64,000 bases of DNA from Pyruvatibacter sp. HU-CL02332 (GTDB lineage Bacteria; Pseudomonadota; Alphaproteobacteria; CGMCC-115125). Shown here in pieces: positions 1,961 to 26,582 of this stretch (position 1 is its first letter; the number at the start of each line of letters is the position of its first letter). The position numbers and the translations under genes were made by a program. The notes beneath the pieces are model-generated. The model ran no database searches. It was not told where the DNA came from and saw only the letters and a program-made list of their open reading frames with translations. The stretch covers positions 1 to 64,000 of the forward strand of contig NZ_BAABWK010000001.1 in NCBI RefSeq assembly GCF_040362765.1, written 5' to 3'.

Positions 1961-2140
1961 TTTTTCCCAGCAATACGGCTATCGACCCGCATGCCATAGA
2001 GCATGTACGAAGTCTGTTGAGGCCATAGCGCCCACCCGCTTGGTCGACATCTTCTGCCTCTTTCGTGATCTTCTCGTTTTCTAATGGCAGCATGTATTTT
2101 TATAGGGCTAGACCGGATGACATTTGCAGAGGATCTCAAA

Positions 2141-4508: not shown

Positions 4509-4514
4509 GCGTCG

Positions 4515-5774: not shown

Positions 5775-5821
5775 CCACCTCGACGCACATCCGACAGGGC
5801 CTGCATGCCGCCGGGAAGACT

Positions 5822-5835
5822 CACGAAAATTCGTG
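5822..5835. promoter_or_regulatory. Inverted repeat upstream of btaA
   Basis: CACGAA-AA-TTCGTG, a perfect 6-bp-arm inverted repeat about 48 nt upstream of the btaA start. Its position fits an operator or a short leader hairpin. No known regulator can be assigned. Confidence 0.35.
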
Positions 5836-5860
5836 GGTTCCGGTCAGTAGCAGGCAGGCA

Positions 5861-5878
5861 ATGACGCTTTTGTCACAG
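5861..5878 (-). promoter_or_regulatory. Candidate PhoB box for btaAB
   Basis: On the btaA coding strand the sequence is CTGTGAC-AAAA-GCGTCAT. It matches the PhoB consensus CTGTCAT-N4-CTGTCAT at 5 of 7 positions in each half with the correct 11-bp repeat spacing and an A-rich spacer. It lies about 87 nt upstream of the btaA start. Phosphate control of btaA is known in relatives. The match is imperfect and could be chance. Confidence 0.4.
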
Positions 5879-5939
5879 CAAAACGTAGGCTGCGTGACGC
5901 GACAGCGACATTGTCATGACTGGACGTAAGAGCAGCGTA

Positions 5940-7835: not shown

Positions 7836-7870
7836 TCTCATATTCTCCAAAACAACACGGACCTGCCGGG

Positions 7871-8830: not shown

Positions 8831-8842
8831 AATGCGTGCTCC

Positions 8843-10012: not shown

Positions 10013-10433
10013 GGCTGCCGCTCCAATTCAGATCCAAGTTCGGTATTCAGATTTTACGTAGCGTAACCAGCAACGGATCGAAACCCGCGAATGGCCGCAG
10101 CGCGAACCCATACTTACGTCATAAAATAATATGCTCTGTGCACAAGTGACAGGTCACAAATCAACTTTTCTTGGCAAAACTGTGATCTTTCTGGTCGTGG
10201 CAGAAGAGCAACGGTTTACGACGACCGATACTCAAGGCCCTATCAAAACTATGGTTAAGGCCCACAAAAGCTAAAGAAATTTGATTAGCCGTGACTTGCA
10301 CTGACCAAGGTCAGCCCCCACACTCTTCTCATATTCGGGGATTACATTCATTGTCTGGTTTGACGCGGAAACGCCACCCAAACCTGCGACCTTTTGACGG
10401 CCACGCCCCAATCTCGAAAGACTATTCAGAGAC
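10013..10433. promoter_or_regulatory. ispG-ispH divergent intergenic region
   Basis: 421 bases without a gene, with an AT-rich patch near 10122-10134. It must hold the promoters of the leftward ispG-ispA-dxs operon and of ispH. Two short inverted repeats containing GTCA/TGAC half-sites are present: GTGAC-AG-GTCAC at 10146-10157 and CTGACC-AA-GGTCAG at 10301-10314. No ORF, RNA gene or riboswitch fold that I can name is visible. Confidence 0.5.
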
Positions 10434-11444
10434 ATGGAACCGACAACAGATACTCAGCTCACTGAAGACACAAATACCGCGAAACCGCCAATGACGGTCG
10501 TGCTGGCCGAACCGCGTGGTTTTTGCGCCGGGGTGGAACGCGCCATTGATGTGGTGGAGCGCTCACTTGAACGCTTTGGCGCTCCCATCTATGTGCGCCA
10601 CGAGATTGTCCACAACAAGCATGTGGTCGATGATCTGCGGGCAAAAGGCGTCATCTTCGTCAAGGAAGTCGACGAGGTGCCCGTGGGTGCTGTTGCCATT
10701 TTCTCCGCACATGGTGTTGCGGAGCGCGTGGAAGAAGCCGCTGGCGAGCGAGGGTTGAAGGCAATCGATGCAACCTGCCCTCTCGTGACGAAAGTCCATC
10801 GTGAAGGCCGGCGTTACGCCGAAGAAGGGTATGACGTGGTCATGATCGGCCATCTTGGTCACCCAGAAGTCGAAGGCACGCTTGGGCGCATCCCCGGTCA
10901 GGTGCAGGTCATTTCTGAACCAGAAGATGTTGCCGGACTTAAAGTGAAAGATCCTGAAAGGGTCGCCTTCGTAACCCAGACGACTCTGTCGGTGAATGAC
11001 ACTCGCGACGTTATTGAGGCACTCAAAACGAAATTCCCCACCATCGTTGGTCCCGATGTACGCGACATCTGCTACGCGACGCAGAACCGGCAAACAGCCG
11101 TGGCCGAAATGGCGAAACACGTCGACATGATTCTTGTTGTTGGTGCCAAGAACAGCTCCAACTCGAATCGCTTGCGTGAACTTGGCGAAACAATCGGCAT
11201 CCCCAGCTATCTTATTGCCGACGCTGATGCCATGGAAAATGGCTGGATTGAAGGCAAAACGCGCATTGGACTGACCGCCGGTGCTTCCGCACCGGAGACC
11301 CTTGTCCAGGGCGTGATCGAGAGATTGCGGGCGACTTATGAGGTGGAAGTAAAATCCCTCAACGTGATCCGCGAAAATGTGACGTTCAAATTACCGCGTG
11401 AACTGCTAGATGATGCTGAACCGTCCCGCGCGGCAGGTGCCTGA
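10434..11444 (+). CDS. ispH: 4-hydroxy-3-methylbut-2-enyl diphosphate reductase (IspH/LytB)
   Basis: 336 aa. Known role: final MEP step, reducing HMBPP to IPP and DMAPP through a [4Fe-4S] cluster. The three cluster cysteines are visible in GFCAGV (C31), ATCPLV (C115) and [10 protein letters not shown] (C213), and the conserved HGV and HPEVEGT segments are intact. The N-terminal ~18 residues are a polar extension, so a start at the internal ATG (residue 20) is possible. It is followed after 67 nt by hpnH on the same strand, placing isoprenoid supply and hopanoid tailoring in one likely transcript. Confidence 0.96.
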
Positions 11445-11511
11445 CACCCTCCCCGTTACGCACCAAGACCCGCCGGACGATCAACGAGCTAAAACCAGGA
11501 GTGACTGACAA

Positions 11512-12690
11512 GTGGCCGTACCCGTAAGACAGATGGCAATGGTTGGCGCCTATGTGATGAAGCAGCGCCTCATGGGCCGCAAACGCTACCCGCTGGTGCT
11601 CATGCTTGAGCCACTCTTCCGCTGCAACCTCGCCTGCCCTGGTTGCGGTAAGATCGATTATCCAGATGCGATCCTCAACAAACGGCTGTCAGCGCAGGAA
11701 TGCTTTGATGCAGTCGATGAGTGCGGCGCACCCGTTGTGGCCATACCCGGCGGCGAGCCGCTGATCCACAAGGAAATCGGCGAGATCGTTGAAGGTCTGG
11801 TTGAACGCCGTAAATTCATTTCGCTGTGCACCAACGCGCTGCTCCTTGAAAAGAAGCTCCACCTCTTCAAGCCATCCCCCTACCTGTTCTTCTCTGTCCA
11901 TCTGGATGGTCTTGAGGAAGAGCACGATAAGGCTGTGGATCAGAAGGGTGTCTTCAAGAAAGCCATCTCTGCCATCAAGGCGGCGCAGGACGCAGGCTTC
12001 CAGGTCAACGTCAACGCCACGATCTTTGACAACATGACAGCCGATCAGGTCGCAGCCTATCTCGACTATTGCACCGACATCGGCGTCTCGATCACCATTT
12101 CACCGGGCTACGCCTATGAGCGTGCGCCGGACCAGGAACACTTCCTTGAACGCCGTCGCACCAAGGACCTGTTCCGTGATGTCTTCCGCAAGGGTGAAGA
12201 ACGCAAAAAGAGCGGCAAGAAGAAATGGGCCCTGAACCACTCATCGCTATATCTGGATTTCCTTGCCGGCAATCAGCAGTACATGTGCCAGCCCTGGGGC
12301 ATGCCCACGCGCAACATCTTTGGCTGGCAGCGCCCCTGCTACCTTCTGAATGAAGGCTACGCCTCCAGTTTCCAGGAACTGATGGACGAAACCGAGTGGG
12401 AGCAATACGGCACCGGCAACTACGAAAAATGCTCGGACTGCATGGCGCATTGTGGGTATGAACCAACTGCCGCTGCAGATGCCGCAGCCCACCCGCTCAA
12501 GACGCTTTGGGTATCCCTGCGAGGCCCCAAGACATCAGGCGATTTTGCGCCGGAGATCGACCTGAGCAATCAGCGTAAGGCAAAATATGTCTATGACGAG
12601 CTGATTGAGAAGAAGGCCGAAGAGCAAAAGCTCAAGGATCTACACGACCCCAAGAAGACTCGGGACAAGGTCTCGGGCACAGCGGCCTAG
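11512..12690 (+). CDS. hpnH: Hopanoid radical SAM protein HpnH (adenosylhopane synthase)
   Basis: 392 aa from a GTG at 11512 with CAGGAG about 10 nt upstream. Known role: radical SAM enzyme adding 5'-deoxyadenosyl to diploptene to give adenosylhopane, the first C35 step. The cluster motif CNLACPGC has C38, C42 and C45; the GGEP motif follows near residues 81-84; more cysteines lie in a C-terminal SPASM-like region (YEKCSDCMAHCGYEP). The C-terminal 51 bases overlap hpnG, which is read from the other strand. Confidence is high from length, motif and context. Confidence 0.95.
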   Translation: MAVPVRQMAMVGAYVMKQRLMGRKRYPLVLMLEPLFRCNLACPGCGKIDYPDAILNKRLSAQECFDAVDECGAPVVAIPGGEPLIHKEIGEIVEGLVERRKFISLCTNALLLEKKLHLFKPSPYLFFSVHLDGLEEEHDKAVDQKGVFKKAISAIKAAQDAGFQVNVNATIFDNMTADQVAAYLDYCTDIGVSITISPGYAYERAPDQEHFLERRRTKDLFRDVFRKGEERKKSGKKKWALNHSSLYLDFLAGNQQYMCQPWGMPTRNIFGWQRPCYLLNEGYASSFQELMDETEWEQYGTGNYEKCSDCMAHCGYEPTAAADAAAHPLKTLWVSLRGPKTSGDFAPEIDLSNQRKAKYVYDELIEKKAEEQKLKDLHDPKKTRDKVSGTAA

Positions 12691-13335
12691 GCTTTTAAAT
12701 CCACGCGAACTGCCGGCGGCGAGACGTATCATCGCCGGCAGATCCTGCGGCCGCAGCGAAAGCCTCAAAACAGTCGTCATAACCCGTATGTCGCCGCCCG
12801 GTCCGATGGCCCCAAGGGCGGCATGTGGCATGGAGTGTTCGACCCCATCGGAGATGGCGCGCAGCGCCGTGAAGGGAATACCCTTTTCTCGGGCCACAAA
12901 AGCCACCGCGCCGCTTTCCATATCAACCGCATGAGCACCTGTGCGGCGGCCAAGAGCCCGCTTGCCCCTTTCATCTGAAACAACATCGCTGGCATCAGCC
13001 ATATCCACATGTCTAAGAACCAGCCCCGCGTGTGCGGCCGCATCCAAAAGCAGTGGCATGAACACGCGCGATGTCTCGATCCGTGTGCCATCACCCATGA
13101 TGATGGCCCGAGCCAAAGCAATATCACCGGGACGCAAGGCATCGGTGATGGCGCCGGACACGCCGTAACTCAATAGCGACGTGCAGCCATGTTCCTCAAT
13201 CAATTCCCGAGCGATGTCTTCTGCTCTGGCAGATGACGCACCGGAGACACCAACTTTCAACCCCGCATCATCCAGCAGCACACCAAGCGATGCTTCTTCA
13301 GCCTTGACGCCGCAGACGATACCAAGCCGTTTCAT
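12640..13335 (-). CDS. hpnG: Hopanoid-associated nucleoside phosphorylase HpnG
   Basis: 231 aa of the PNP/MTA phosphorylase fold. Known role: removes adenine from adenosylhopane to give (phospho)ribosylhopane, the precursor of bacteriohopanetetrol. Family marks are the N-terminal GIVCGVKAEE, SYGVSGAI in the middle, and VDMESGAVAFVAREKGIPFTALRAISD in the active-site region (Asp-Met-Glu-Ser). It is the last gene of the hpnC-D-E-shc-hpnG run, 54 nt after shc, and its 3' end overlaps the 3' end of convergent hpnH by 51 bases. Confidence 0.92.
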   Translation of the reverse strand: MKRLGIVCGVKAEEASLGVLLDDAGLKVGVSGASSARAEDIARELIEEHGCTSLLSYGVSGAITDALRPGDIALARAIIMGDGTRIETSRVFMPLLLDAAAHAGLVLRHVDMADASDVVSDERGKRALGRRTGAHAVDMESGAVAFVAREKGIPFTALRAISDGVEHSMPHAALGAIGPGGDIRVMTTVLRLSLRPQDLPAMIRLAAGSSRGFKSLGRCARDLVPSLLGVV

Positions 13336-13389: not shown

Positions 13390-15363
13390 CTACATGCCGT
13401 AAGCGACATGCCTGTCATTGCTCTTCATCAGGTTCTCATAGCGAGCAACGGCCCATAGCGGGAAATAAGCGGCATAGCCGTGATACTTGAGATAGAAGAC
13501 CTTGGGAAAGCCTGTACCCGTATAGAGTTTCTCGTCCCAGCGCGCGCCATCACGCTTGGCGGTTTCGAGATAGGCAATGCCCTTTCGGACTTCCTCACAC
13601 TCAACTTCGCCGGCAGCCATCAATCCCAGCACAGCCCAGGCAGTTTGCGACGCTGTCGATTCATGCACTTCGCTTTTGCGATGCTCATGATAGGTCGCAA
13701 GGTCTTCGCCCCAACCACCATCAGCACGCTGGCGTGCCTTGAGCCATGCAACCGACCTCTGCACATAAGGCGCTGACATGTCTTCGCCCACTGCATTGAG
13801 TGCGCAAAGAACGGACCACGTACCGTAGATGTAGTTGGCGCCCCACCTGCCCCACCAGGACCCGTCGTCCTGCTGATCTCGCTTGAGGTACTTCACGCCA
13901 AGAGCGATTTCCTTGGCAAACCGGTCCTTATCCAATTGCGCCAAGAATGACAGGCAACGCGCCGTCACATCTTCCGTGGGCGGATCAAGAAGGGCTCCAT
14001 GATCTGCAAAGGGAATGGAGTTCAGATAAAAATGTTCGTTCTCAGGCTCAAAGGCACCCCAGCCGCCTGATGAAGACTGCATGCCCACAACCCACTCAGC
14101 GGCCCGCTCAATGCTCTCATTGTATTCAGGCTTGCCCGTGCGGTGCATGGCCATGGCCACAACCGCTGTGTCATCCACGTCAGGGTAGTAGTCATTGTTG
14201 TATTGAAACGCCCAACCACCCGGACGAACATCAGGACGCCGCACGGCCCAATCGCCGACAACATCAAGAATCTGCTTGTCCTTGAGCCAGTCCAGCGCGC
14301 CATCAAGCTCCTTGTCGCCAGCTTCAAGGCCAGCTTCCATCAGCGCGTGAGAGGCCAGACAAGTATCCCAGACCGGAGAGACACAAGGCTGGCAGTAGAG
14401 CTCTTCGTCGGTCTCGACCAGCAACCGCTCAATGGACTCCTTGGCGATCATCAGATTTGGATCATCCTTGGGATACCCCAACAAGTCATAGGCCATGACT
14501 GAGTTGGCCATCGCCGGGTAAATCGCACCCAGACCATCCACGCCGTTGAGCCGCTCGGTGAAGAAGTCCACTGCCTTATCAACGGCCCTCTTACGCAGAC
14601 CCTTGGGAAAGGCCGGTTCGCAGAAGCGCAGAACCTTGTCGAGCACCAGGAAACAGTCACCAACAAAAGTCCCATTGGGATTGATGTTGTAGACCTTCTC
14701 TTCTTCGGGCGGTGTCACGAAGAGTTCGCGAATGTTGATCCCCGTGGGATTACGAGCTTCTGCCTTGAGCGAGCAGAGGATCAGCAGCGGTGCGATCACC
14801 GTGCGGGACCAATAGGCAATCTTCGACATGTGGAAGGGAAACCACTTTGGCAGCAGCATCACCTCAACTGGAATGACCGGCACGCCACGCCAGGGGATCT
14901 GCGCAAACAGTGCCAGCATGATGCGTGTAAAGACGTTGGCTTTGGATGCCCCGCCGCGCGACAGCACCCACTCACGCGCCTTTGCCATATGCGGCGCATC
15001 AATGTCCTCACCAGTAAGCTTTAATGCCCAATAGGACTTGATGGTCGCGGAAATGTCCCCGTCCCCATCCTGAAAGAGCGGCCAGCTGCCGTCTTCGTTC
15101 TGGATACGCTTGAGGTATTTGGCAATCTTCACTTCCTTGGCGGGATCAACCTCGTCAAGAAAATGCTGAAGCAGGACGTATTCGGACGGAATGGTTGAAT
15201 CAGCCTCAAGCTCGAAAACGATGTGGCCGTCATCCCGCTGCATTTCCAGCAACCGGTCAGCCTGCGTCTTAATGAGTTCCTCGCGGGCCAGTCGCTCCGC
15301 TGCGCCATCGGTGTCAGATGACGGACCAAATTCAACAACAGTCACTGCTGGTACCCAATCCAA
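13390..15363 (-). CDS. shc: Squalene-hopene cyclase
   Basis: 657 aa. Known role: cyclises squalene to hopene/hopanol at the membrane. The catalytic DXDD motif is DVDD at residues 395-398. QW repeats are visible at about 88-94 (QNEDGSW), 430-436, 498-504 and 546-552, as expected for the alpha/alpha barrels. The annotated start is a TTG without a clear Shine-Dalgarno; a GTG six codons later (15345) is an equally plausible start. It follows hpnE by 74 nt and precedes hpnG. Confidence 0.97.
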   Translation of the reverse strand: MDWVPAVTVVEFGPSSDTDGAAERLAREELIKTQADRLLEMQRDDGHIVFELEADSTIPSEYVLLQHFLDEVDPAKEVKIAKYLKRIQNEDGSWPLFQDGDGDISATIKSYWALKLTGEDIDAPHMAKAREWVLSRGGASKANVFTRIMLALFAQIPWRGVPVIPVEVMLLPKWFPFHMSKIAYWSRTVIAPLLILCSLKAEARNPTGINIRELFVTPPEEEKVYNINPNGTFVGDCFLVLDKVLRFCEPAFPKGLRKRAVDKAVDFFTERLNGVDGLGAIYPAMANSVMAYDLLGYPKDDPNLMIAKESIERLLVETDEELYCQPCVSPVWDTCLASHALMEAGLEAGDKELDGALDWLKDKQILDVVGDWAVRRPDVRPGGWAFQYNNDYYPDVDDTAVVAMAMHRTGKPEYNESIERAAEWVVGMQSSSGGWGAFEPENEHFYLNSIPFADHGALLDPPTEDVTARCLSFLAQLDKDRFAKEIALGVKYLKRDQQDDGSWWGRWGANYIYGTWSVLCALNAVGEDMSAPYVQRSVAWLKARQRADGGWGEDLATYHEHRKSEVHESTASQTAWAVLGLMAAGEVECEEVRKGIAYLETAKRDGARWDEKLYTGTGFPKVFYLKYHGYAAYFPLWAVARYENLMKSNDRHVAYGM

Positions 15364-15437: not shown

Positions 15438-16703
15438 TTAGTCAGCGTCGATGCGGGCAAGCGCTACATCCGCTGCCATTCCACCTGACCGGATTGCACC
15501 TTCAATGGTCGCCGGCAGCCCAGTATCGACCCAATCCCCTGCCAAAAGCAGGTTTTCAAACTCGGTCTTGGTACCCGGGCGGCGTGCAACACTTTCTGGT
15601 GATTGATCAAACGTCGCCCGCTTTTCCTTGATGATCTTGCCCGCAACATAGTCGCGGTCGATCAGACCAAGCGCAAAACGGGTTTCTTCCCAGAACAGCG
15701 GCAGGAGTTCCTCATTGGGCCGATCCACCAGATCACCGGCCGCCGAAACAGTCAGGCTGACGATATGCCCGCGAACAAAGGCCCAGTGGGCATGGGCATT
15801 GATCAAACCAATAACGCCGACACCATCAGGTCGTGGCGCAGGCCGCTTCAGCTTGAAATGCACATTGATGATTGTCTCGCCCTCGCCCGGCACCTCCATG
15901 TCAGGCAGCACGTCCTTTGCACGCTGCGGCGGCACAGCAAGAATGACTGCATCATGTGGATGCACCGTCACCGTCTTGTCACCAAAGGACAATGAGGTGA
16001 TCCGTCCATCTTCATGCTCAAAAGAGCGAAGCCGGGTGTTGAACTGAACCGGGCGATTGGTACGTCCAAGCATCCGTACCGCTGGATCAACAAACGCCGA
16101 ACCGAGGCCCTTCTTGGCTGTCAGCGGACGACAGGCCTGCTCGCCCTTCAAAAAGGTCTCCCGCATCACCGGCCAAAGGAGTTTTGCTGATCCTTTTTCC
16201 GGAAGTGTATTGAGAACAGCCACCACCATGGGTTCCCAGAAGCGCTGGAAGAGCGTGCCACGTGTCGGCAATACATCGGCAACTGTTTGATGTGGCTTCG
16301 CAAAAGGCAGCTTCAGCCCCGAAAAGTAATTGAACAGACGGGTGTCAGGCACGCGCCGGTCTGCAGAAGCAACCCACCAGGGAAATGGTCCCCAATTGGG
16401 TTTCAGCGTCCAACGCTCACGCGTCTTGGCGTCAATAAAGGGGAAAGCCGCTTTATCCGGACTGGACATGGCTTCACTGGAGCCGATGGCATCCAGATAT
16501 GCCAACGCAGACTTGTTGCCGCTCAGGACAAGGTGATTGCCGTTATCAATGACGTGATCGAGGGTCTTGTCATAGTAAGACCGGCACCGCCCACCTGCAT
16601 GGCCTGCGGATTCATAGACCTGCACGGGCACGCCTGCGCCTTCAAGCCGGACGGCCGCTGATAACCCGGCAAGTCCGGCACCAATGATGTGAACAGTGGG
16701 CAT
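15438..16703 (-). CDS. hpnE: Hydroxysqualene dehydroxylase HpnE (FAD-dependent)
   Basis: 421 aa amine-oxidase-type flavoprotein. The dinucleotide motif GAGLAGLSAAVRLEGAG lies at residues 8-24 and is followed by YESAGHAGGRC. Known role: with HpnC and HpnD it converts FPP to squalene; HpnE removes the hydroxyl from hydroxysqualene by reduction. A C-terminal FAD segment (LLAGDWVDTGLPATIEGAIRSG) is intact. It starts 4 nt after hpnD stops, so it is part of the hpnC-D-E block. Confidence 0.94.
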   Translation of the reverse strand: MPTVHIIGAGLAGLSAAVRLEGAGVPVQVYESAGHAGGRCRSYYDKTLDHVIDNGNHLVLSGNKSALAYLDAIGSSEAMSSPDKAAFPFIDAKTRERWTLKPNWGPFPWWVASADRRVPDTRLFNYFSGLKLPFAKPHQTVADVLPTRGTLFQRFWEPMVVAVLNTLPEKGSAKLLWPVMRETFLKGEQACRPLTAKKGLGSAFVDPAVRMLGRTNRPVQFNTRLRSFEHEDGRITSLSFGDKTVTVHPHDAVILAVPPQRAKDVLPDMEVPGEGETIINVHFKLKRPAPRPDGVGVIGLINAHAHWAFVRGHIVSLTVSAAGDLVDRPNEELLPLFWEETRFALGLIDRDYVAGKIIKEKRATFDQSPESVARRPGTKTEFENLLLAGDWVDTGLPATIEGAIRSGGMAADVALARIDAD

Positions 16704-16707
16704 TAAG

Positions 16708-17643
16708 TCAGCTCCCCTTCACGGCACCGCGACGCGGCGGCAGGAGGAGATACCGAAGGGCAATACCAAGCTTGGCTGCCTTACCCAGCTTGACGGGGTC
16801 ACCCATTGCGAAATCACGTTCTTCCATCACCCGCAAATAGCGCTCATAGACACCCATCATCAATAGCGCCGGGCGAACCTCTCGCCAATTGAGGTGCGTC
16901 AAAAGCGCCTGAGTTTCACCAAACCACCCCCTGGCCTCACGCCCAAGCCGTCGTGCGACGTCCTGAACAGCTTCATGACCGGCAATTTCATGGGGATCGC
17001 GGGTGGAAATGCCGCATTCGTCAAGAAGCTCTGACGGAAGGTAAACCCGACCCATTTCAGCGTCTTCCTCCACATCACGAAGGATATTGGTGAGCTGCAG
17101 CGCATTTGCGAGCGCAATGGCGAACCGGTCCTCGACGTCTCCCCTGCCTGCACCGAAAACAGGCATCGACAGCAAGCCGACCGCGCCAGCAACGCGCCGA
17201 CAATAGGCCATGAGGCGGTCGTGACTGGGGGCAACGAGCGGCCCCTCAACATCCATCACCATGCCCTCAATCAACATCTCAAACTCATGACGGTCGAGGT
17301 CAAAACGACGTATGGCGGGAACCAGAGCGACACCCACGGGTGTTTGCGGCGTCGATTCATAGCAGCGCGCGATCTCGTCGCGCCAGGCAGCAAGACCAAT
17401 CATCCGCTCGTCGTAGGTACCCCCCTCGTCCGCGACGTCATCCACTTCGCGGGCAAAGGCGTAGATGGCATACATCGCTTCACGTCGTTCACGCGACAGG
17501 ATGCGCATTCCCGCAGCAAAGGATGTGCCTGACCGTTTTACGATTTCCGCTGCGTGCTGGGCCGCATCCTCAACCGACATGCCGATGCCTGCAGTTCCAA
17601 GAACAGATGTCTCAGGCGCAATGTGGGCCACACTATCCGTCAT
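16708..17643 (-). CDS. hpnD: Presqualene diphosphate synthase HpnD
   Basis: 311 aa squalene/phytoene synthase family. Aspartate-rich motifs are DDVAD (68-72) and DVEED (190-194). Known role: head-to-head condensation of two FPP to presqualene diphosphate. Its ATG overlaps the hpnC stop codon as ATGA, indicating translational coupling. HpnC and HpnD are paralogues; this one keeps the canonical NILRDVEED and YLP segments of HpnD. Confidence 0.94.
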   Translation of the reverse strand: MTDSVAHIAPETSVLGTAGIGMSVEDAAQHAAEIVKRSGTSFAAGMRILSRERREAMYAIYAFAREVDDVADEGGTYDERMIGLAAWRDEIARCYESTPQTPVGVALVPAIRRFDLDRHEFEMLIEGMVMDVEGPLVAPSHDRLMAYCRRVAGAVGLLSMPVFGAGRGDVEDRFAIALANALQLTNILRDVEEDAEMGRVYLPSELLDECGISTRDPHEIAGHEAVQDVARRLGREARGWFGETQALLTHLNWREVRPALLMMGVYERYLRVMEERDFAMGDPVKLGKAAKLGIALRYLLLPPRRGAVKGS

Positions 17644-18563
17644 GTGAGTTCACCATCAGGCAGACGCCCCTTCCCGCCAAAGAAGAAACCGCTGACGGCG
17701 CCGGCAACACCTGCAATGAAGAAGTCGAGCTTGGTGAGTTTCACGCGCGTGGCCAGCGGGTCACCCGTGCGAAGACGCTGCGCCAGCCGACGGGCAAGTC
17801 GAACAATGATTTCCGACTCCATTGCCAACCTGCGCGAGGTCAAAGCTCGAGGAAGGTGTGCGGCCAGGGAAAGCTGCGCGTCCGTGTCATCAAGCACGCG
17901 ATCAATGACTTGGCGCAGCCCCGGGGTCAGCTCTTTGCCATAAAGATCTGCGTGCTTTGCACCAGCTTCCGCCAGCCAGGCATCCGGTAGATAGCACCGA
18001 TCCATCGTCATGAAGTCTTTGCCGCAATCCTGCAGATGGTTCACCAGCTGAAGTGCCGTGCACAACCCATCTGAATACGGATAGATTTTTGCACCGGCTT
18101 CAGGGCTTCCCTCATGTAGGTCCACAAGAAAGCGCCCCACCGGGTCCGCCGACATTCGACAATAGCCGTGCAGCTCCTCAAGCGAGGCATAACGACCTTT
18201 TTCAGCGTCCTGACGAAAAGCATTCAAGAGCGCGCGGGGGTGGCGCACGTCATGTCCCTGCTCGGCGAGCATGCGGGCCAATTCGCCCCCGCGTGTAGGG
18301 CTGTCAGGATGAAGCAGGCTTTGATCCATGACATCAAGACGCTCAATCTTTTCAGATGGCGAAAGGCTCGGATTGTCTGAAATGTCGTCCGCGGCTCGGG
18401 CAAACCCGTAAAAGCTGGCAATCACCGGCCTGAGATGCGCCGGAAGCAGGACCGATCCAACCGGAAAATTCTCATCCCCGGCCCCCTTCCCGGACGGGGT
18501 TTCAGCCCCTGACGCATGGAGGCTGCTGGCGGATTTAACCGCGCTGGCATCTTGGATGTCCAT
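17640..18563 (-). CDS. hpnC: Hydroxysqualene synthase HpnC
   Basis: 307 aa from the ATG at 18563; the open frame extends to 18707 but the extra residues are unconserved-looking and run into the divergent promoter region. No clear Shine-Dalgarno precedes 18563. Squalene/phytoene synthase family with FARAADDISD and LQDCGKDFMTMDRCYLP as the Asp-containing motifs. Known role: converts presqualene diphosphate to hydroxysqualene. A hydrophobic stretch near the C-terminus (FFIAGVAGAVSGFFFGG) suggests membrane association. First gene of the leftward hpnC-D-E-shc-hpnG set. Confidence 0.92.
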   Translation of the reverse strand: MDIQDASAVKSASSLHASGAETPSGKGAGDENFPVGSVLLPAHLRPVIASFYGFARAADDISDNPSLSPSEKIERLDVMDQSLLHPDSPTRGGELARMLAEQGHDVRHPRALLNAFRQDAEKGRYASLEELHGYCRMSADPVGRFLVDLHEGSPEAGAKIYPYSDGLCTALQLVNHLQDCGKDFMTMDRCYLPDAWLAEAGAKHADLYGKELTPGLRQVIDRVLDDTDAQLSLAAHLPRALTSRRLAMESEIIVRLARRLAQRLRTGDPLATRVKLTKLDFFIAGVAGAVSGFFFGGKGRLPDGELT

Positions 18564-18732
18564 GAGGTGGAAAAGTGCCTTTGTTCTGCCCGATCCGGGC
18601 GACTGGATTCGACTGTGGGCGCACGCTATCGCGTCCCACATTCGGCGGCAAGAAACGCAGGTGTGAACAGCCCAAAAGCCTGTGTTACCTGTATGTTTGT
18701 GTCCCACCAGTCAAATCCAAGACCCAGCCCCA
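18564..18732. promoter_or_regulatory. Divergent hpnC / hpnB promoter region
   Basis: 169 bases separate the divergently read hpnC and hpnB starts, so promoters for both directions should be here. One inverted repeat, TGTGGG/CCCACA at 18614-18640 with a 15-nt spacer, is a possible operator. The regulator is unknown. Confidence 0.45.
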
Positions 18733-19926
18733 ATGACCTTCCTGATCGACCTTGTCACCTTAGAACTCAGCGCGCTCACAGCACTGGCACTCCTCGCCTG
18801 GATTTACCTCACATGGATGAGGGCGGGATTCTGGAAGGCCGACATATGGTTAAAGCCCGAACCATCCTCCTTGGCCCCGGTAAAGTCGTCCGTTGCAGCG
18901 GTTATTCCCGCACGGGACGAAGCTGAAACAATTGCCACCACCCTCGCGTCGCTGACCGCACAATCCTTCTCGGGCACTCTTAAAATCTATGTTGTGGACG
19001 ATCAGAGTACCGATGGGACCGGTGACATTGCCCGTGCCGCATCCACGGAAAACATTGCCGTTGAAGTAATCAATGGCACTGATCTGCCTGAAGGCTGGAG
19101 CGGCAAGGTCTGGGCCATGTCCCAGGGAGTGGCATCAGCCTCTGCCGGGTCAGACATGCCCGACTACATCCTGCTGACAGATGCCGATATTGAATACGCG
19201 CCCCATGTGCTCGACAAGATGGTGCGCGCGGCCGACGCCCACTCATATACCTTCGTCTCCCTGATGGCCCGTCTTGATGCCCGTGGTCTTTGGGGGCAGT
19301 TGCTCGTTCCTGCCTTCATCTATTTCTTCCAGCTGATCTACCCCTTCGCCAAGGCCAATACCCGCTACGACAGTCTGGCAGCAGCAGCAGGTGGTTGCTT
19401 TCTTGTGCGCCGAGACGCGCTGGAGGCAGCTGGCGGATTGGCATCCATAAAAAGCGACATCATTGATGATTGTGCCCTTGCCGAAGCCCTGAAGCGGGCA
19501 CGACCTGCACAGGACACATTGACCGCCCTCACCCACGAGGTGCATTCACGCAGAGACAACCGCACCCTGGAAAGCATCTGGAACATGGTTGCCAGAACCG
19601 CTTTCACCCAATTGCGCTATAGCTGGCTAATGCTCGCAGGTGCCCTCATGGGCCTGGTCCTCACATTTCTGGTTCCGGTGTGGGGCCTGTTGTCTTGGGT
19701 ATTCGCTGATGCCGGATGGACTGTTGGCGCAATCTGCATTGCAACCCTTGCCCTCATGGCGCGCACCTACTGGCCGACAGTCCGCATGTACGGACTATCG
19801 CCCATGTGGGCCTTCTCCCTGCCCGCAGCCGCGGTCATCTATGCGGGGGCGACCGCAGCCTCTGCCCTGCGGCATGCACGCGGGTCCGGTGCTCGCTGGA
19901 AGGGCCGCAGTTACCCGGCCACCTAG
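18733..19926 (+). CDS. hpnB: Hopene-associated family 2 glycosyltransferase HpnB
   Basis: 397 aa from the ATG at 18733, chosen because it begins the first membrane segment (residues about 3-23). A GT-A domain follows with AAVIPARDEAETI, VVDDQSTDGT and the metal-binding LTDADI. Several C-terminal membrane helices follow (from about residue 300). HpnB is always found with hopanoid genes and is thought to add a sugar to the hopanoid polyol, though its exact product is not established. It is transcribed away from hpnC and converges on hpnA 13 nt later. Confidence 0.9.
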   Translation: MTFLIDLVTLELSALTALALLAWIYLTWMRAGFWKADIWLKPEPSSLAPVKSSVAAVIPARDEAETIATTLASLTAQSFSGTLKIYVVDDQSTDGTGDIARAASTENIAVEVINGTDLPEGWSGKVWAMSQGVASASAGSDMPDYILLTDADIEYAPHVLDKMVRAADAHSYTFVSLMARLDARGLWGQLLVPAFIYFFQLIYPFAKANTRYDSLAAAAGGCFLVRRDALEAAGGLASIKSDIIDDCALAEALKRARPAQDTLTALTHEVHSRRDNRTLESIWNMVARTAFTQLRYSWLMLAGALMGLVLTFLVPVWGLLSWVFADAGWTVGAICIATLALMARTYWPTVRMYGLSPMWAFSLPAAAVIYAGATAASALRHARGSGARWKGRSYPAT

Positions 19927-19939: not shown

Positions 19940-20947
19940 TCAGCCCTTCCGCCCGCTCCACAGACCTTCAGCTTCAAACCAATTGAGCAGATCACTGAGC
20001 GTTTCATCGAGGCTATGACGTGGGGACGGAAGAAATTTCCGCGCGGCCTGCATATCAAACTGTATCGGGCGGCGGGCAAGCTTTACGCCGGTCAACGGTG
20101 CCTTGGGCGGCTTCCCGGTCAAACGGGTCGCCACGAACTCATCCGCATAGGCAAAGGCCTGCGCAACAAAGCCCGGAACTTTACTCCTGGGCATGGCAAC
20201 ACCACTTACAGCCTCAAGACGTTGCAGTAGATCTGATAGCTGCAGGTTCTCACCGCCTAGGAACAGTCCATGACGTGGTACGTCGATATCCAGCATCGCC
20301 ACGATGCTTGCCGCCATGTCCCGTGCATCCGCAATGTTCATCCAGGTTTCCAGATAGGCCGGCGTTCGCCCCGACACAAAGTCCAGGACCATCTGGCTCG
20401 GCGGCGTGAGACCAATGTCCCCGGGGCCAAGCGGCATTGTAGGAATGGCGATGCGCACAGGCAGACCATCATCATAGGCCTGCCGTGCCGCCGCCTCAGC
20501 CAACCACTTGGAGCGCGGATACGCACCCAGCATGTCCTCCACGTCGGGCAGGTCAGCTTCAGTTACTGTCCGCGGCACGCCCCCGCCTGCCCCGGCAATC
20601 CGCGTCGTGAGCGAAGACACATGGACGAACGCAGACACTTCTTGCGCCTTGGCTGCATCAAGCATCATCTGCGTGCCGGTATGATTGACCCGGGCGAAAT
20701 CCTGCATATCCGATGACCACAGATGCGGGATTGCCGCCAGATGGATGATCCGCGCGACACCGTTGCAGGCAGACGCTACGGTTTGCTCATCAGTGACTGA
20801 ACCCAGAACCCACTCGGCACCCGATTGCCTATCGTCTGGCTGCCTATCAAGCACGCGAACCGGACAGCCGCCTGCAAGTAGGCAATCAACCACATGGCGC
20901 CCAAGAAAACCGGCGCCGCCTGTAACCAGCGTAAGGTTGGCAGTCAT
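19940..20947 (-). CDS. hpnA: Hopanoid-associated sugar epimerase HpnA (extended SDR)
   Basis: 335 aa from the ATG at 20947, which overlaps the upstream gene's stop as ATGA. The Rossmann motif TGGAGFLGRHV lies at residues 8-18 and the active-site YPRSK (Tyr-x3-Lys) lies in the middle. HpnA is an NAD(P)-dependent sugar epimerase/dehydrogenase-like protein found in hpn loci; its substrate is not settled. It is the fourth gene of hpnM-sulfotransferase-propeller-hpnA. The frame is open another 20 codons upstream but that part lies inside the preceding gene. Confidence 0.9.
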   Translation of the reverse strand: MTANLTLVTGGAGFLGRHVVDCLLAGGCPVRVLDRQPDDRQSGAEWVLGSVTDEQTVASACNGVARIIHLAAIPHLWSSDMQDFARVNHTGTQMMLDAAKAQEVSAFVHVSSLTTRIAGAGGGVPRTVTEADLPDVEDMLGAYPRSKWLAEAAARQAYDDGLPVRIAIPTMPLGPGDIGLTPPSQMVLDFVSGRTPAYLETWMNIADARDMAASIVAMLDIDVPRHGLFLGGENLQLSDLLQRLEAVSGVAMPRSKVPGFVAQAFAYADEFVATRLTGKPPKAPLTGVKLARRPIQFDMQAARKFLPSPRHSLDETLSDLLNWFEAEGLWSGRKG

Positions 20948-22128
20948 TGCTGGGCCGCCGATTGTGGAGGTTGATGCGGGCTGCAAATGCCCAAACCGGC
21001 ATCCCATGCTGAAGACACAACAATCTGATCACCGAGCATCACAGCTGATGTCGCAGCACCCGGCATGGTTCCAGACGGACCTGCAATGGTCTGTTGTGAC
21101 CCACCATCGGCGGATGAAATGACAACGCTGCTTTCAGGCAGATTGCCCCACCCATTGATATGCAGGAACAACGCAAAAGGGTCAGGATGGACAGCTGTTA
21201 CGCTACTGCCATCAGGCGCAAGACTGACATTGTCTGGCCCACCCTCAAAAGATACGACCACATTCGGGTCGGTGTTTCCTTCAAGCAGCGCCTGTTTGTC
21301 GAAAACGCGAAGTACCTGGTCTCTCGAGGCAGTCATCAGCAGTGAGGCGCCATCTGGGGAAACCGCTACACCATTTGCAAACGCGACATCGTCAAGAACC
21401 GGCTGGGCATCCACCTGCCCGTCATCAAACCTAGATAACCGAAGGCCCGAACTGCGGGGTTGAAACACCCGCTCGGCCCAAACACCCCATGCACCACAAC
21501 GGCTTTGGTCATAGGTGAAGACGGCGGTTGACGCATCCAGCAACGCAACATCATTGGCTCTGCAATATGCCTCGCCACTGCCACGACCAATCAAGGCAAG
21601 TGATTGAGCATCAAGATCAAACAACAACAAGTCGGCGGCTGATGCATCGTGCATGTCTGTCAGGCGGTTGACCACAGCAAGCCGTGACGTCTCACCATCG
21701 TCAAACAACCCAATGCCATGCGGATGTAACAAGAGAGACTCCGGAACCCGCACATCGAGCGTCTTAACCGGCAGAGAGACATCTTCATCACGTATCGAGG
21801 TCAACCGATCAACGTACAGGGAGAAAAGGCCTCCACCAGGAGGCTCCGACCCATTCTCCATTGCACGCATTGCGGCAAACCGGTCATAGGCGCTGAGGAT
21901 AAGCCGACCATTGCGCACATCATACGCCATGTCCTCAATCCCAAAGATGGATTGACCCGCCTCATCAATGACTGACACAGGCCTGCACATATAGTCAGAA
22001 AACAGAACATCTTGAGATTTGGCAGGCACGGCTGTCAGCATGACCGCAAGGGTGCAAAGTGCAGCGCGATGCATGCGCTTTGAACGAAGCACCAGCCGGG
22101 TCAGAGGGTCATCAAGTTTGCGCAACAT
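20944..22128 (-). CDS. Exported paraoxonase/SMP-30-like beta-propeller protein
   Basis: 394 aa. A Lys/Arg-rich N-terminus and hydrophobic core (RAALCTLAVMLTAVPAKSQD, about 20-39) predict a signal peptide, so it should act in the periplasm. The remainder looks like a six-bladed propeller of the paraoxonase/gluconolactonase group: LHPHGIGLFDD, CRANDVALLDAS, FANGVAVSPDGASLL and GGPDNVSLAPDGS are spaced like the calcium-ligand Asn/Asp and His positions of paraoxonases. A lactonase or esterase role is plausible; the substrate is unknown. It lies 24 nt after the sulfotransferase and overlaps hpnA by 4 nt, so it is translationally tied to hopanoid genes. It is not one of the named hpn genes. A start at residue 19 (22074) is possible. 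Confidence 0.75.
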   Translation of the reverse strand: MLRKLDDPLTRLVLRSKRMHRAALCTLAVMLTAVPAKSQDVLFSDYMCRPVSVIDEAGQSIFGIEDMAYDVRNGRLILSAYDRFAAMRAMENGSEPPGGGLFSLYVDRLTSIRDEDVSLPVKTLDVRVPESLLLHPHGIGLFDDGETSRLAVVNRLTDMHDASAADLLLFDLDAQSLALIGRGSGEAYCRANDVALLDASTAVFTYDQSRCGAWGVWAERVFQPRSSGLRLSRFDDGQVDAQPVLDDVAFANGVAVSPDGASLLMTASRDQVLRVFDKQALLEGNTDPNVVVSFEGGPDNVSLAPDGSSVTAVHPDPFALFLHINGWGNLPESSVVISSADGGSQQTIAGPSGTMPGAATSAVMLGDQIVVSSAWDAGLGICSPHQPPQSAAQQ

Positions 22129-22152: not shown

Positions 22153-23238
22153 CTACCGCCCCGGGCGCTTATACCCGCCCTGCTCGACGAAAGCGCCGAG
22201 TCGGCCTTCGACCAGAGCAGCAGATTTGTCCGAGTAGTCAAACCGGTTCTTCTCGAACCCGGCAACCGATCGCAGATACGCTTCAAACCGAGGACGCACG
22301 GAATTGAACCCGGGAAGCCCAAGCTTTGTGTAGACGCGCTCAAGCTCTTCGATGGGGCTCTCGTCCAGGTTCTCATAGGCAATCTCTACTCGCTGCGCTT
22401 CCGGGATCGACGGCCACTGCGCCTCAATCAGCCCCATGATGCGTTCGTATACTGACAGAACAGCCTCATCAATATCCACGTGGTCATAAGGCTGCAGCGC
22501 CAGCTGCTTGAAGAGCTTGGCATAGAAGTTCCGCATGCTTTCAAACACTTCATACGGATTGCGCCGAATGTGGATAAACAGCGCATCCGGATAGAGCCTG
22601 TGCAGCATTTCAACCCGGCTCGTATAGACCGGGTTCTTGATCAAAAGTCGCTTGCGATCCTGTTGAAGCCAGAGCTTGCGCATGAAGTAGGTGAAAGTGT
22701 CCTGCCACTCCTCCACTTCGCTTTCAGTGCACCCGTCAAAAAACAGACCACGGGAGACATGATGGTCGAATGCCTTGGGGAAATAGATGCCGTGATAAAA
22801 TGAAAGCGGCGACATATTCGCCAATGCAATTTCATCTTCCTGCGGCGAGTCCGGCCGAACCGGAATGTTGTCGATGTACCGTGTTTCCGGAAGTGCCCTG
22901 TCAATGACAGGCTTCAGCAAACGGCCAAGCAACAACATGTCCCAGGGCAGGCCCGTAGCAACCGGCGGCACAAAGCCGAAATCATCCTGCACCATGAGAT
23001 TGTACAGATGTGTCGTGCCGCTACGCCAATGTCCGACAATGAAAACGGGGGGTGGCATGTCACCAGAAGACTTCAACTGCGCATTTGTATAAATCTTCTC
23101 GACAGCAGAAATCGGCGCACGGCCGATCACAGCACCCAACAATCCAACCACACTCGGCATGGATTTCAGAGGCACACCGCCACTGTTCGCGAGCACTGAC
23201 GCCAGTGTCCCGTAATTGCTACCATTGAGAGGGTGCAT
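22153..23238 (-). CDS. PAPS-dependent sulfotransferase in the hopanoid operon
   Basis: 361 aa. The 5'-phosphosulfate-binding loop is IVGHWRSGTTHLYNL (67-81) and the 3'-phosphate site is FIHIRRNPYEVFESM (221-235), the two defining motifs of PAPS sulfotransferases. The PQEDE segment (132-136) is typical of the Sulfotransfer_3 type. It starts 2 nt after the hpnM stop and is followed at 24 nt by the propeller gene, then hpnA, so it is inside a hopanoid transcript. No signal peptide, so it is cytosolic. Family knowledge gives sulfate transfer to a hydroxyl or amine; a hopanoid polyol as acceptor is my inference from position. Not one of the named hpn genes. Confidence 0.85.
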   Translation of the reverse strand: MHPLNGSNYGTLASVLANSGGVPLKSMPSVVGLLGAVIGRAPISAVEKIYTNAQLKSSGDMPPPVFIVGHWRSGTTHLYNLMVQDDFGFVPPVATGLPWDMLLLGRLLKPVIDRALPETRYIDNIPVRPDSPQEDEIALANMSPLSFYHGIYFPKAFDHHVSRGLFFDGCTESEVEEWQDTFTYFMRKLWLQQDRKRLLIKNPVYTSRVEMLHRLYPDALFIHIRRNPYEVFESMRNFYAKLFKQLALQPYDHVDIDEAVLSVYERIMGLIEAQWPSIPEAQRVEIAYENLDESPIEELERVYTKLGLPGFNSVRPRFEAYLRSVAGFEKNRFDYSDKSAALVEGRLGAFVEQGGYKRPGR

Positions 23239-23240: not shown

Positions 23241-23912
23241 CTATTCCGCATCAACCGCTATCTGTGCGGCCTTCTTGTTAAGGGCATCCGCCAATACATC
23301 GGCGCCCTGCCTGGCCAATGAGGACAATTCCGAGCGTCGCCGCGCCGCCTCGCTCACACCATTATACTGGACATCGGCAATTCCCGTTGTCCCGTCTTTG
23401 GTGGTTGCAACCACATAGACCAGTTGAACGGGCTCACCGGACTTGCGAACAAGCTGTGTTTCCACGACGACAGATCCGCGAGGGCCCGCAGAACTACCTA
23501 CAGTCTCGAAACTGATCGGGAGTGGCTTTCCAAATCGACTTAGATAATTCGAGACAACGAACGCACGATAGGCGGCTACAACGCTTGCCTTTTGTTCTGC
23601 CTCATATCCACGAAACGTCGAAGGACCTATGGACTGAGCAGTCAGGGCCGGCAGGTAATAGGTGTCATCCACGACACCGGCAATATAGTCGGATGCACCC
23701 TCAGCGCCCAACTCCTGAGCATTCTGCATGAGATGATTGAGCCCATCATGCAGCTTTTCAACCACCACCACTGCCGCGGCACCAGAGTTCACCATTTGGT
23801 CCTGGGCAACCGCCGCGCCGGACATCGTGCCAAAAGAAAGTAACGTCAAAGCGGCGAGGATTGACCCGAATTGGCGTCTCATCTGCTGCTGCATTGTCGC
23901 AAGGGCTGTCAT
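23241..23912 (-). CDS. hpnM: HpnM, MlaC/Ttg2D-family periplasmic phospholipid-binding protein
   Basis: 223 aa. The start at 23912 has AGGA 7-8 nt upstream. A signal peptide (hydrophobic core about 17-31, ending VAQD) precedes a toluene-tolerance/MlaC domain with the characteristic YYLPALTAQSIG and FVVSNYLSRFG segments. In the hopanoid context this is HpnM, thought to help lipid movement between membranes together with HpnN. It heads the leftward transcript hpnM-sulfotransferase-propeller-hpnA and is divergent from hpnN. Confidence 0.88.
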   Translation of the reverse strand: MTALATMQQQMRRQFGSILAALTLLSFGTMSGAAVAQDQMVNSGAAAVVVVEKLHDGLNHLMQNAQELGAEGASDYIAGVVDDTYYLPALTAQSIGPSTFRGYEAEQKASVVAAYRAFVVSNYLSRFGKPLPISFETVGSSAGPRGSVVVETQLVRKSGEPVQLVYVVATTKDGTTGIADVQYNGVSEAARRRSELSSLARQGADVLADALNKKAAQIAVDAE

Positions 23913-24023: not shown

Positions 24024-26582
24024 ATGGCTCAAATTCTAGCGACTCTCGTCACCATCATAACCCGCTTCCCGGTTTTTACCCTTCTAGGGCTTATGCTTGG
24101 CACATTTGCGGCAGGATTCTACGCGACCACTCAATTTCGTGTGAATACCGACCAATCCTCGCTCATCGCCCCAAATTCAGAGTTTCAACAGCGGTTTGAT
24201 CGCTTTCGAGATGCCTTCCCGACTTACCGCCGCACAACACTGGTAGTGGTGGAATCAGCCTCACGCTCTGCAGCTGCCAACGGCGCAGCTGACCTGGCTG
24301 AGGCTTTGGAAGCGCGTGAGGACATCTTTCGATCGATATTCACAACGGCCGCCATGCCCTTCTTCCTGCAGAACGGGCTCCTGTACCTCGATACCGAAGA
24401 CGTCGCATCGCAGCTCGATGCCTTGGTACAGGCCCAACCCGGCATTGCCATTGTCGCAAATGAAAAAGGGTTGGCTGGCACCCTGAGCCTGCTGCGTCAG
24501 GGACTAACGCAGTTGGATGATACCGGTCAGCTGAATCCCTCCCTGATGGCCCTGGCCAACGACCTGACCCGCGCCGCAAGAACCATTGCTGACGATGCAG
24601 CACCACCTCTGAGATTCAATCTCGGGAGCCTTGGCAGCAACGACGCGCAAACCGCCATCGAACTGATTTCCATTCAGATCCGCGAGGACACTGGCGACTT
24701 CCTATCCCCGCGGGCCAAACTCGACGTGATCCGCGCAACTGCGGTTAACCTTGGCCTTACGCCTGAAAACGGCTTCACCGTCCGACTCACTGGCAACATC
24801 CCTCTGTCAGTCGATGAACTTTCGCAAGTCCGTGAGAGCCTTGGTCTCGCCGGTGCCCTGTCACTCGTGATGCTGGCAGTTGTTCTGGGTCTGGGTGTCC
24901 GGTCGGGTCGCATTGTCAGTGTGATGGTTATGACGCTGGCAGTCGGTGGTGTCTGGTCCATGGCCTGGGCCATGTTCAGTGTCGGCGAAGTCAACCTGCT
25001 GTCGGCCAGCTTTGCTGTCCTGTTTGTTGGACTGGGGATCGACTTCGCAATCCATTACGCCCTACGCGCACAGGAAGATGTGGAAAAAGGAATAGCTACC
25101 GGCCCGGCGCTCATCACATCCGCCCAAGATGTAGGGCCCGCCATCGCATTGGGAGCCGTTACGTCCGCTATCGGCTTCCTCTCATTTTTGCCAACCGACT
25201 ACAAAGGCTTTGCAGACCTCGGCGTCATTGCCGGCGGCGGCATGGCATTGGCATTCATCGCCGCACTCACAGTTATTCCTGCCAGCCTTGGCAAATTCGG
25301 CATTCCGGCCCACCGCAATGCAGGCGGGAGTTTTGCCGCCCTGACCAGTCGCGCTTTTGCGATCAGCCAGATCCACGCACGCGGCATTGCCATGGCGGCA
25401 GTTGTCTGCGGCATCGCTTCTGCTGCAATTGCCACCAATGCCCGCTTTGATTTTTCAACCCTAGCTCTCAAGAACAGTCAGTCGGAACCTATACTTGCTC
25501 TTGCTGATCTGCAGGAGCGCGGCATGGCCACCGACTACGCCGCCTATGTGATTGCGCCCTCTCTTGAAGCATCAAGCGATACCGTCACGGCGCTCAAGAC
25601 ACTCCCGACCATGGGGAGTGTACGAACCGCCAACAGCCTCATCCCGACAGACCAAGGTGAGAAGCTGGCTCTGATAGAAGACACAGCATTCCTGTTCTTC
25701 CCCCTCTTCAGCAAGATCAACGGACCAGCGGCTGCCGTGCCCGATAGCCTGTCGTTCCCGATGAATGATGACTCGCATCACGACACCCGAGCCACTCTGG
25801 ACGGCCTTACAACAGCGCTTTCAGCCCTGACACCGACCCAACTGGAAGGACTGAACACAGCTCTTGCAGATCAATTGACGCGAGACCTCAGCAGACTGAC
25901 CGACATCTTTGAAGCGGAACCTGTCACCTCGCTCGACCAAATTCCTGCCCCCGTGAAGGGACGATATCTTTCCGCAGACGGCCAGGCGCTGGTTATTGGC
26001 TTGCCAAAAGGTGACGTAACCCGGACAGAAGATCTGCGCGCCTTTGTTGCCGACGTAAAATCGCTGTTTCCCGACAGCACCGGCCGCGCTGTTGTCGAAG
26101 CGACCGTGGGAGACATCGTCGTCAACGCATTCGTGACGGCGCTGGTCATTGCTCTGTGTGCAGTGACCCTCATCGTTTTGATGGCCACTGGAAGCTTCAG
26201 GGATACAGCTCTTATCCTGATGCCACTCTTGCTTGCGGCAGTGGCAACTGCAGCAACAGGCGTCCTCATCGACATGCCGTTCAATCAGGCCAACATCATC
26301 GTCCTGCCCCTGATCATGGGGCTGGGCGTGGACAATGGCATCCACGTGTTGATGCGCTACCGCAAGGATAGCTCCCTGGAGAGCCTTCTGAAGTCGTCAA
26401 CGCCACGGGCGATTGTGCTCAGCACACTGACAACCATAGGTGCCTTCGGCGCCCTGAGCGTATCGGTACATGCCGGGACCGCCAGCATGGGCATATTGCT
26501 GACCATCGCCATGCTCTACCTCTTGATCGCAACGGTTTTTGTCTTGCCCGCCCTGCTCAGTCTGGCTGGCAAAAGACGTTAG
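24024..26582 (+). CDS. hpnN: HpnN, hopanoid RND/MMPL-family transporter
   Basis: 852 aa inner-membrane protein with the two-fold RND layout: a helix at 17-37, a large periplasmic loop, a helix bundle at about 265-460, a second loop and a second bundle at about 700-850. The helix-4 and helix-10 type motifs GLGIDFAIHY (near 333) and GLGVDNGIHVLMRY (near 765) carry the buried Asp of proton-coupled RND proteins. Known role in relatives: delivery of hopanoids to the outer membrane. Upstream Shine-Dalgarno is weak. Its last 4 bases overlap the convergent MFS gene. Confidence 0.93.
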   Translation: MAQILATLVTIITRFPVFTLLGLMLGTFAAGFYATTQFRVNTDQSSLIAPNSEFQQRFDRFRDAFPTYRRTTLVVVESASRSAAANGAADLAEALEAREDIFRSIFTTAAMPFFLQNGLLYLDTEDVASQLDALVQAQPGIAIVANEKGLAGTLSLLRQGLTQLDDTGQLNPSLMALANDLTRAARTIADDAAPPLRFNLGSLGSNDAQTAIELISIQIREDTGDFLSPRAKLDVIRATAVNLGLTPENGFTVRLTGNIPLSVDELSQVRESLGLAGALSLVMLAVVLGLGVRSGRIVSVMVMTLAVGGVWSMAWAMFSVGEVNLLSASFAVLFVGLGIDFAIHYALRAQEDVEKGIATGPALITSAQDVGPAIALGAVTSAIGFLSFLPTDYKGFADLGVIAGGGMALAFIAALTVIPASLGKFGIPAHRNAGGSFAALTSRAFAISQIHARGIAMAAVVCGIASAAIATNARFDFSTLALKNSQSEPILALADLQERGMATDYAAYVIAPSLEASSDTVTALKTLPTMGSVRTANSLIPTDQGEKLALIEDTAFLFFPLFSKINGPAAAVPDSLSFPMNDDSHHDTRATLDGLTTALSALTPTQLEGLNTALADQLTRDLSRLTDIFEAEPVTSLDQIPAPVKGRYLSADGQALVIGLPKGDVTRTEDLRAFVADVKSLFPDSTGRAVVEATVGDIVVNAFVTALVIALCAVTLIVLMATGSFRDTALILMPLLLAAVATAATGVLIDMPFNQANIIVLPLIMGLGVDNGIHVLMRYRKDSSLESLLKSSTPRAIVLSTLTTIGAFGALSVSVHAGTASMGILLTIAMLYLLIATVFVLPALLSLAGKRR

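Follow-up and report, generated by a model that had tools for sequence, protein, structure and literature searches.

The window, a 64,000-nucleotide stretch of the Pyruvatibacter sp. HU-CL02332 genome, holds a hopanoid cluster at 11.5–26.6 kb, in the order hpnH(+), hpnG, shc, hpnE, hpnD, hpnC, hpnB(+), hpnA-like, paraoxonase-like (PON-like), sulfotransferase (ST), hpnM-like and hpnN(+). Its features are as follows.

11512–12690, plus strand: hpnH, adenosylhopene transferase (TIGR03470, 534 bits, above cut-off)
12640–13335, minus strand: hpnG, hopanoid-associated phosphorylase (TIGR03468, 150 bits, below the cut-off of 187)
13390–15363, minus strand: shc/hpnF, squalene-hopene cyclase (SHC) with a DVDDTA motif (TIGR01507, 821 bits, above cut-off)
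15438–16703, minus strand: hpnE, hydroxysqualene dehydroxylase (TIGR03467, 387 bits, above cut-off)
16708–17643, minus strand: hpnD, presqualene diphosphate synthase (TIGR03465, 282.7 bits, above cut-off)
17640–18707, minus strand: hpnC, squalene synthase (TIGR03464, 245 bits, just below the cut-off of 250; the start codon likely lies further inside)
18682–19926, plus strand: hpnB, hopene-associated GT2 glycosyltransferase (TIGR03469, 430.6 bits, above cut-off)
19940–20947, minus strand: hpnA-like SDR of the HpnA2 subfamily, third gene of the proposed module (TIGR03466, 252.6 bits, below the cut-off of 367.65)
20944–22128, minus strand: PON-like, predicted exported six-bladed beta-propeller of 394 aa, second gene of the proposed module (PON1 profile match, AlphaFold2 and Foldseek)
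22153–23238, minus strand: ST, predicted PAPS sulfotransferase of 361 aa with an ATG start (PF13469, AlphaFold2 model, orthologues in hpn clusters)
22537–22578, minus strand: 3'-phosphate-binding motif of ST, FIHIRRNPYEVFES, aa 221–234 of the translation
23005–23043, minus strand: 5'-phosphosulfate-binding motif of ST, FIVGHWRSGTTHL, aa 66–78 of the translation
23241–23912, minus strand: hpnM-like gene of the MlaC family, first gene of the transcript (PF05494; TIGR03481, 113.7 bits, below the cut-off of 160.1)
24024–26582, plus strand: hpnN-like MMPL/RND hopanoid transporter, divergent from hpnM (TIGR03480, 690 bits, below the cut-off of 751.85)

The hpnA, hpnG, hpnM and hpnN of the window score under their NCBIfam cut-offs and were named by homology and position. 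An earlier note on this DNA had called the neighbors of ST hpnA and hpnM; both are homologous to those genes, but they are divergent and fall short of the TIGR03466 and TIGR03481 equivalog cut-offs, the MlaC-family hpnM-like gene adjoining hpnN. The same note placed ST 2 nt after hpnM, as the coordinates confirm (hpnM stop at 23241, ST start at 23238), and before hpnA. ST does lie upstream of hpnA in the same cluster, but the two are not adjacent, the PON-like gene between them having been overlooked. The PON-like frame follows ST after a gap of 24 nt, and its TGA stop overlaps the hpnA ATG start as ATGA. A promoter and terminator scan gave signal near chance. Like the hpn clusters described for hpnA–hpnR (PMC12583986), that of the window has hpnBCDE, shc, hpnG, hpnH and hpnM/N in or beside it; it differs from them in the extra ST and PON-like genes and in an HpnA from a different subfamily.

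By profile, motifs and fold, ST is a PAPS sulfotransferase of the Sulfotransfer_3 family, for which sulfuryl transfer is predicted. PF13469 matches it at 4.2e-31 (109.3 bits, cut-off 27), and both PAPS sites that had been read as intact from the letters are present. The 5'-phosphosulfate motif FIVGHWRSGTTHL, with its G..RSGTT loop, is invariant or nearly so among 21 orthologues, and R226 and S234 of FIHIRRNPYEVFES do not vary in the same alignment, lying 8 residues apart, the Arg–Ser spacing of SULT enzymes. An AlphaFold2 model built from 21 input sequences (pLDDT 74.8, pTM 0.80) was compared with the PDB by Foldseek, and the top matches are all sulfotransferases (best 6e-8), Mycobacterium STF9 and STF1 coming first, followed by olefin-synthase, CurM and tyrosylprotein sulfotransferases. 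STF1 (2zq5) and STF9 (2z6v), the best matches by Foldseek and by profile, share the fold and both PAPS motifs with ST, yet are only 18–19% identical to it; to our knowledge they do not act on hopanoids, and they are encoded without linkage to hopanoid genes. PF13469 enzymes act on very diverse acceptors and a fold match names none of them. Our search by sequence, profile and fold for a relative that would name the acceptor gave no match better than 19% identity. ST is the single Sulfotransfer_3 protein of the window's genome, which also encodes an APS kinase that scores 227 bits and lies in a frame of 645 aa, so that a PAPS supply is present. APS kinase was likewise found in 19 of 20 ST genomes, the exception being a MAG that is 77% complete.

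The middle gene is best described as PON-like. Pfam returns weak SMP-30/strictosidine synthase matches and nothing else, and a gluconolactonase/SMP-30 annotation was considered on that basis. It was dropped in favor of PON, which is ahead by about ten orders of magnitude in Foldseek: with the AlphaFold2 model (pLDDT 85) as query, the ten best PDB matches are PON1, from 4e-22, and the next family, strictosidine synthase, follows at 7e-12. A profile of 20 PON-like proteins also finds serum paraoxonase PON1 first, at 6e-4. In the orthologue alignment E65, D66, N192, D193, N252, D299, N300, C48 and C382 are invariant or nearly so. The PON1 calcium ligands are E53, D54, N168, D169, N224, D269 and N270. 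PON1 (1v04, 6h0a) and the PON-like protein have in common six blades, aligned calcium-ligand positions, H115 and the C42–C353 disulfide, whereas identity is about 20% and the PON-like protein is bacterial, predicted to be exported and often lipobox-bearing. The H115–H134 dyad of PON1 is not conserved, H115 corresponding to H137 and H134 to an invariant Arg155; we therefore name the protein PON-like and do not file it as a PON lactonase. Its N-terminus resembles a signal peptide and a lipobox is frequent among its relatives, from which it should be periplasmic or membrane-anchored. Two more tandem PON-like genes occur in the window's own genome (L102, 9035–11142; contig C1, about 674–676 kb). 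We found nothing usable in the literature on bacterial PON (Oceanicaulis) or on Marinicaulis lipids.

The third gene is an unusual HpnA. Canonical HpnA (TIGR03466) and the form found here, HpnA2, are both extended SDR proteins tied to hpn genes. By profile score and tree placement, the HpnA linked to ST is a distinct subfamily and never canonical HpnA. All ST-linked HpnA proteins score 248–349 bits, below the TIGR03466 cut-off, and every one falls in a single separate group (split 100/99), some members of which occur without ST; those linked to PON form a subclade of it (support 97/95). Canonical HpnA is present in 0 of 10 ST genomes versus 56 of 70 others (p 1e-6, relatedness ignored).

Orthologues of ST, at 49–61% identity outside the genus, form a clade of 35 rows with support of 100/97 and occur in Parvularculaceae, in at least six more alphaproteobacterial families and in one genome of another class (G739). 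In the congener G003 (Ec32), ST is 98% identical to that of the window. This conservation in other genomes rules out a chance open reading frame. Our scan of named genomes yielded 23 Parvularculaceae/Marinicaulis ST loci, and in each of the 22 where the contig extends beyond ST, PON and hpnA lie immediately downstream, the two overlapping by mostly 4 nt; hpnC/D are also within the locus in 17. The usual order beside hpnA is ST-PON-hpnA, set within hpnBCDEGH. Other families have ST-PON-hpnA or ST-hpnA in hpn clusters, rearranged ones included, and the linkage to hpnA survives rearrangement, the genes being head to tail, convergent or divergent, across at least eight families and two classes. 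In G739, ST is divergent from hpnA, and hpnG, hpnH, an hpnL-like gene, hpnM, hpnN and shc are on the same contig. An hpn enzyme should hold its place in hpn clusters across lineages, and ST does so.

Some neighbors recur within one lineage. TamA/TamB are the divergent upstream neighbors of ST in 17–18 Parvularculaceae loci (L032–L054), and in many loci of that family genes for PhyH and 2OG-Fe(II) oxygenases, which may be hopanoid hydroxylases, are located between hpnA and hpnG. We considered TamA/TamB, PhyH, the 2OG oxygenase and Usp genes near the Parvularculaceae ST as module parts and left them out, as they are lineage-specific and outside the shared unit. The G739 hopanoid locus has a fused HMG-CoA reductase/GHMP kinase gene of the mevalonate pathway adjoining hpnH (L125, 16481–18730).

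An hpn enzyme should also be present only where SHC is encoded. The earlier note had held that homologues found mainly outside shc-carrying genomes would speak against a hopanoid link; SHC was found in 20/20 ST-clade genomes and in 3/3 further ones, hence in all 23 tested, against a background of 107 of 385 sampled Alphaproteobacteria. In that sample of 385, strong ST matches occur in 10 genomes from only five families, and all 10 encode SHC (Fisher 2e-6, relatedness ignored). The boundary of the clade is also that of the association: ST cousins at 28–35% identity fall outside the 35 rows and are not in hpn clusters, and SHC is missing from 4 of 5 genomes that carry them. A paralogue in G348, 42% identical to ST, lies outside any hpn cluster (L062, 9248–10411), and that genome also has a cluster copy. 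The PON profile follows ST, with a strong match in 9/10 ST genomes versus 1/70 other SHC genomes; the single such genome, G327, has a PON-hpnA2 pair that lies away from the hpn cluster and lacks ST (L095, 8459–10539).

Parvularculaceae clusters lack shc, which we considered as a refutation and rejected: shc is elsewhere in those genomes, with a DxDDTA motif and a score above the hopene-cyclase cut-off. In this family, Marinicaulis flavus included, the cyclase is a second type of SHC, about 37% identical to the shc product of the window and encoded away from the hpn cluster (L167, 8403–10448; L071–L084); the M. flavus enzyme scores 704 bits against the 431-bit cut-off. A 2025 survey of Alphaproteobacteria places Marinicaulis among the genera without shc (PMC12583986). 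A SulP-family anion permease is encoded about 1.4 kb upstream of the M. flavus shc (L167, 5258–7018, minus strand).

Constraint on ST matches that on core hopanoid enzymes. Between the window and Ec32, dN/dS of ST is 0.025, between shc at 0.017 and hpnE at 0.034, while hpnA, hpnM and PON are above it at 0.11–0.16. The earlier note had rested the hopanoid link on gene order only; that no longer describes the case, which now also includes co-occurrence, the clade boundary, HpnA2, PON, selection and synteny across families. We consider it very likely that ST has a role in the hopanoid pathway.

What that role might be is a more delicate question. On balance we favor the view that ST, PON and HpnA2 form a dedicated hopanoid-tailoring module in which ST adds an O-linked sulfate to a bacteriohopanepolyol or to the sugar that it bears. 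We propose a model where HpnH and HpnG would furnish hopene with its C35 ribosyl/polyol side chain, CysNC would supply PAPS, and ST would move SO3 from PAPS, in the cytosol, to a bacteriohopanepolyol hydroxyl or to a sugar added by HpnB and the HpnA2 SDR. HpnN and HpnM could then carry the anionic product outward, and the exported PON-like calcium beta-propeller may act on it, or on its ester or lactone, in the periplasm or at the outer membrane. Here we infer the hopanoid acceptor, the hydroxyl used, the retention of the sulfate, the order of the steps and the PON reaction. The chances that a stable sulfated hopanoid is the product seem to us even.

HpnJ, the cyclitol-ether enzyme, bears on where such a decoration would fit. 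Its absence from the window, as noted earlier, extends to the whole genome, and no HpnJ above cut-off was found in any of 20 ST genomes, compared with 21 of 70 SHC genomes that lack ST (Fisher p 0.04, relatedness ignored). This fits, weakly, the earlier suggestion that ST supplies an alternative head-group decoration. The HpnI/HpnK/HpnJ cyclitol-ether route resembles the proposed module in that both would decorate the head group of bacteriohopanetetrol and are encoded with hpn genes; it differs in adding a sugar-derived cyclitol where ST would give an anionic sulfate.

The main alternative, which we regard as unlikely, is that ST sulfates a hopanoid hydroxyl from which the sulfate then leaves, by elimination, cyclisation or displacement, to give an unsaturated, anhydro or cyclic sulfate-free hopanoid, with HpnA2 and the PON-like protein acting before or after. 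All of the evidence for a hopanoid link fits this equally. The second-best solved relatives of ST are the olefin-synthase and CurM sulfotransferases, in which sulfation primes a hydroxyl for decarboxylative elimination, and LGS1, described as carrying out sulfation-assisted ring formation, is among the fold matches. The genes for unsaturated hopanoids are, in addition, unknown (PMC12583986). However, no lyase or decarboxylase partner is kept beside ST, and ST resembles CurM/Ols weakly, with profile values of 7e-9 and 2e-4 and an identity of about 16%, the mycobacterial STF1/STF9 being the best matches.

That ST instead sulfates an exopolysaccharide or LPS sugar, and owes its place among the hpn genes to something else, is improbable in our estimation, although it has a precedent. 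The 2014 genome paper on Ca. Phaeomarinobacter ectocarpi Ec32 described Phect108 and Phect853 as sulfotransferases whose clusters also contain GT2/GT4 and epimerase genes, and assigned both to exopolysaccharide (PMC4110880). HpnA is indeed epimerase-like, HpnB is a GT2, and the only NCBIfam match of ST is the nodulation sulfotransferase NoeE (NF052394), at 29.3 bits against a cut-off of 500. The congener G003 (Ec32) carries two Sulfotransfer_3 genes and no more, separated by 777 kb, where the Phect108 and Phect853 tags would predict 772 kb (745 genes of 1036 bp). One belongs to a genuine GT4 polysaccharide cluster with an epimerase; the other is the ST orthologue, whose "GT2 and epimerase" neighbors are hpnB and hpnA. 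Judging by this match of spacing between tags and genes, the ST orthologue of Ec32 was probably seen in 2014 and filed under exopolysaccharide, and it is through the second cluster of G003 that we disfavor this assignment for ST. The orthologues are, moreover, restricted to SHC genomes and hpn clusters, and polysaccharide export and polymerisation genes are absent among the conserved neighbors of ST.

We give similarly little credence to an acceptor that is some other isoprenoid or lipid, such as a hydroxylated carotenoid, a quinone or a glycolipid, the cluster then being a general membrane-lipid island. In the window btaAB, dxs, ispG, ispH and a polyprenyl synthase gene do adjoin the hpn genes, and PF13469 includes Stf3, the mycobacterial menaquinone sulfotransferase. 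But in other families the DNA read around ST contains neither btaAB nor dxs, while PON, HpnA2 and hpnBCDEGH stay, and among the sampled Alphaproteobacteria there is no strong ST match without SHC. Finally, a chance hitch-hiker, fixed in the operon by accident with no role in lipids, would be compatible with the gene order of one genome but is scarcely credible given a dN/dS of 0.025 and a linkage kept through rearranged clusters over that whole range of families and classes, at least eight and two in number.

If the tailoring module does work as we favor, the implications reach beyond this organism. Hopanoids, the bacterial equivalent of cholesterol, give order to the membranes of bacteria, and among bacterial molecular fossils they are the most used. 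Sulfated hopanoids would add a class of anionic triterpenoids to the known membrane lipids, a proposition that we think could fall either way, with ST/PON/HpnA2 found in Parvularculaceae, Phaeomarinobacter, several more alphaproteobacterial families and, outside that class, at least one genome. The openly searchable literature, outside which most subscription journals lie, gave no report of a sulfated hopanoid; perhaps nobody has searched for such chemistry, or perhaps there is none. The 2025 survey, whose cultures came from three other orders, found no candidate tailoring genes near hpn beyond hpnA/B/L/M; it states the functions of HpnA, HpnB, HpnL and HpnM as unknown (PMC12583986). The ST module with HpnA2 offers concrete, testable chemistry in the form of an anionic hopanoid, a lipid that hopanoid methods based on positive ions or acetylation could miss. 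HpnA, long without a function, would gain a context, and there would be a new biomarker whose gene is known.

It is also tempting to consider that a sulfated hopanoid would provide phosphorus-free negative charge in an organism that encodes the betaine-lipid genes btaAB, whose place beside the cluster, pointed out earlier, has Pfam support (DUF3419 and methyltransferase). A predicted exported sulfatase of the formylglycine type, with an intact CAPSR motif (PF00884; window 2084–3850, plus strand), adjoins btaB 8 kb from hpnH. We considered it as a partner of ST; it occupies the same place in Ec32, but it is not there in G001, and we did not retain it. The isoprenoid and membrane-lipid island at 3870–12690 of the window, where btaB, btaA, dxs, the polyprenyl synthase gene, ispG and ispH run up to hpnH, is common to G003 and G001.
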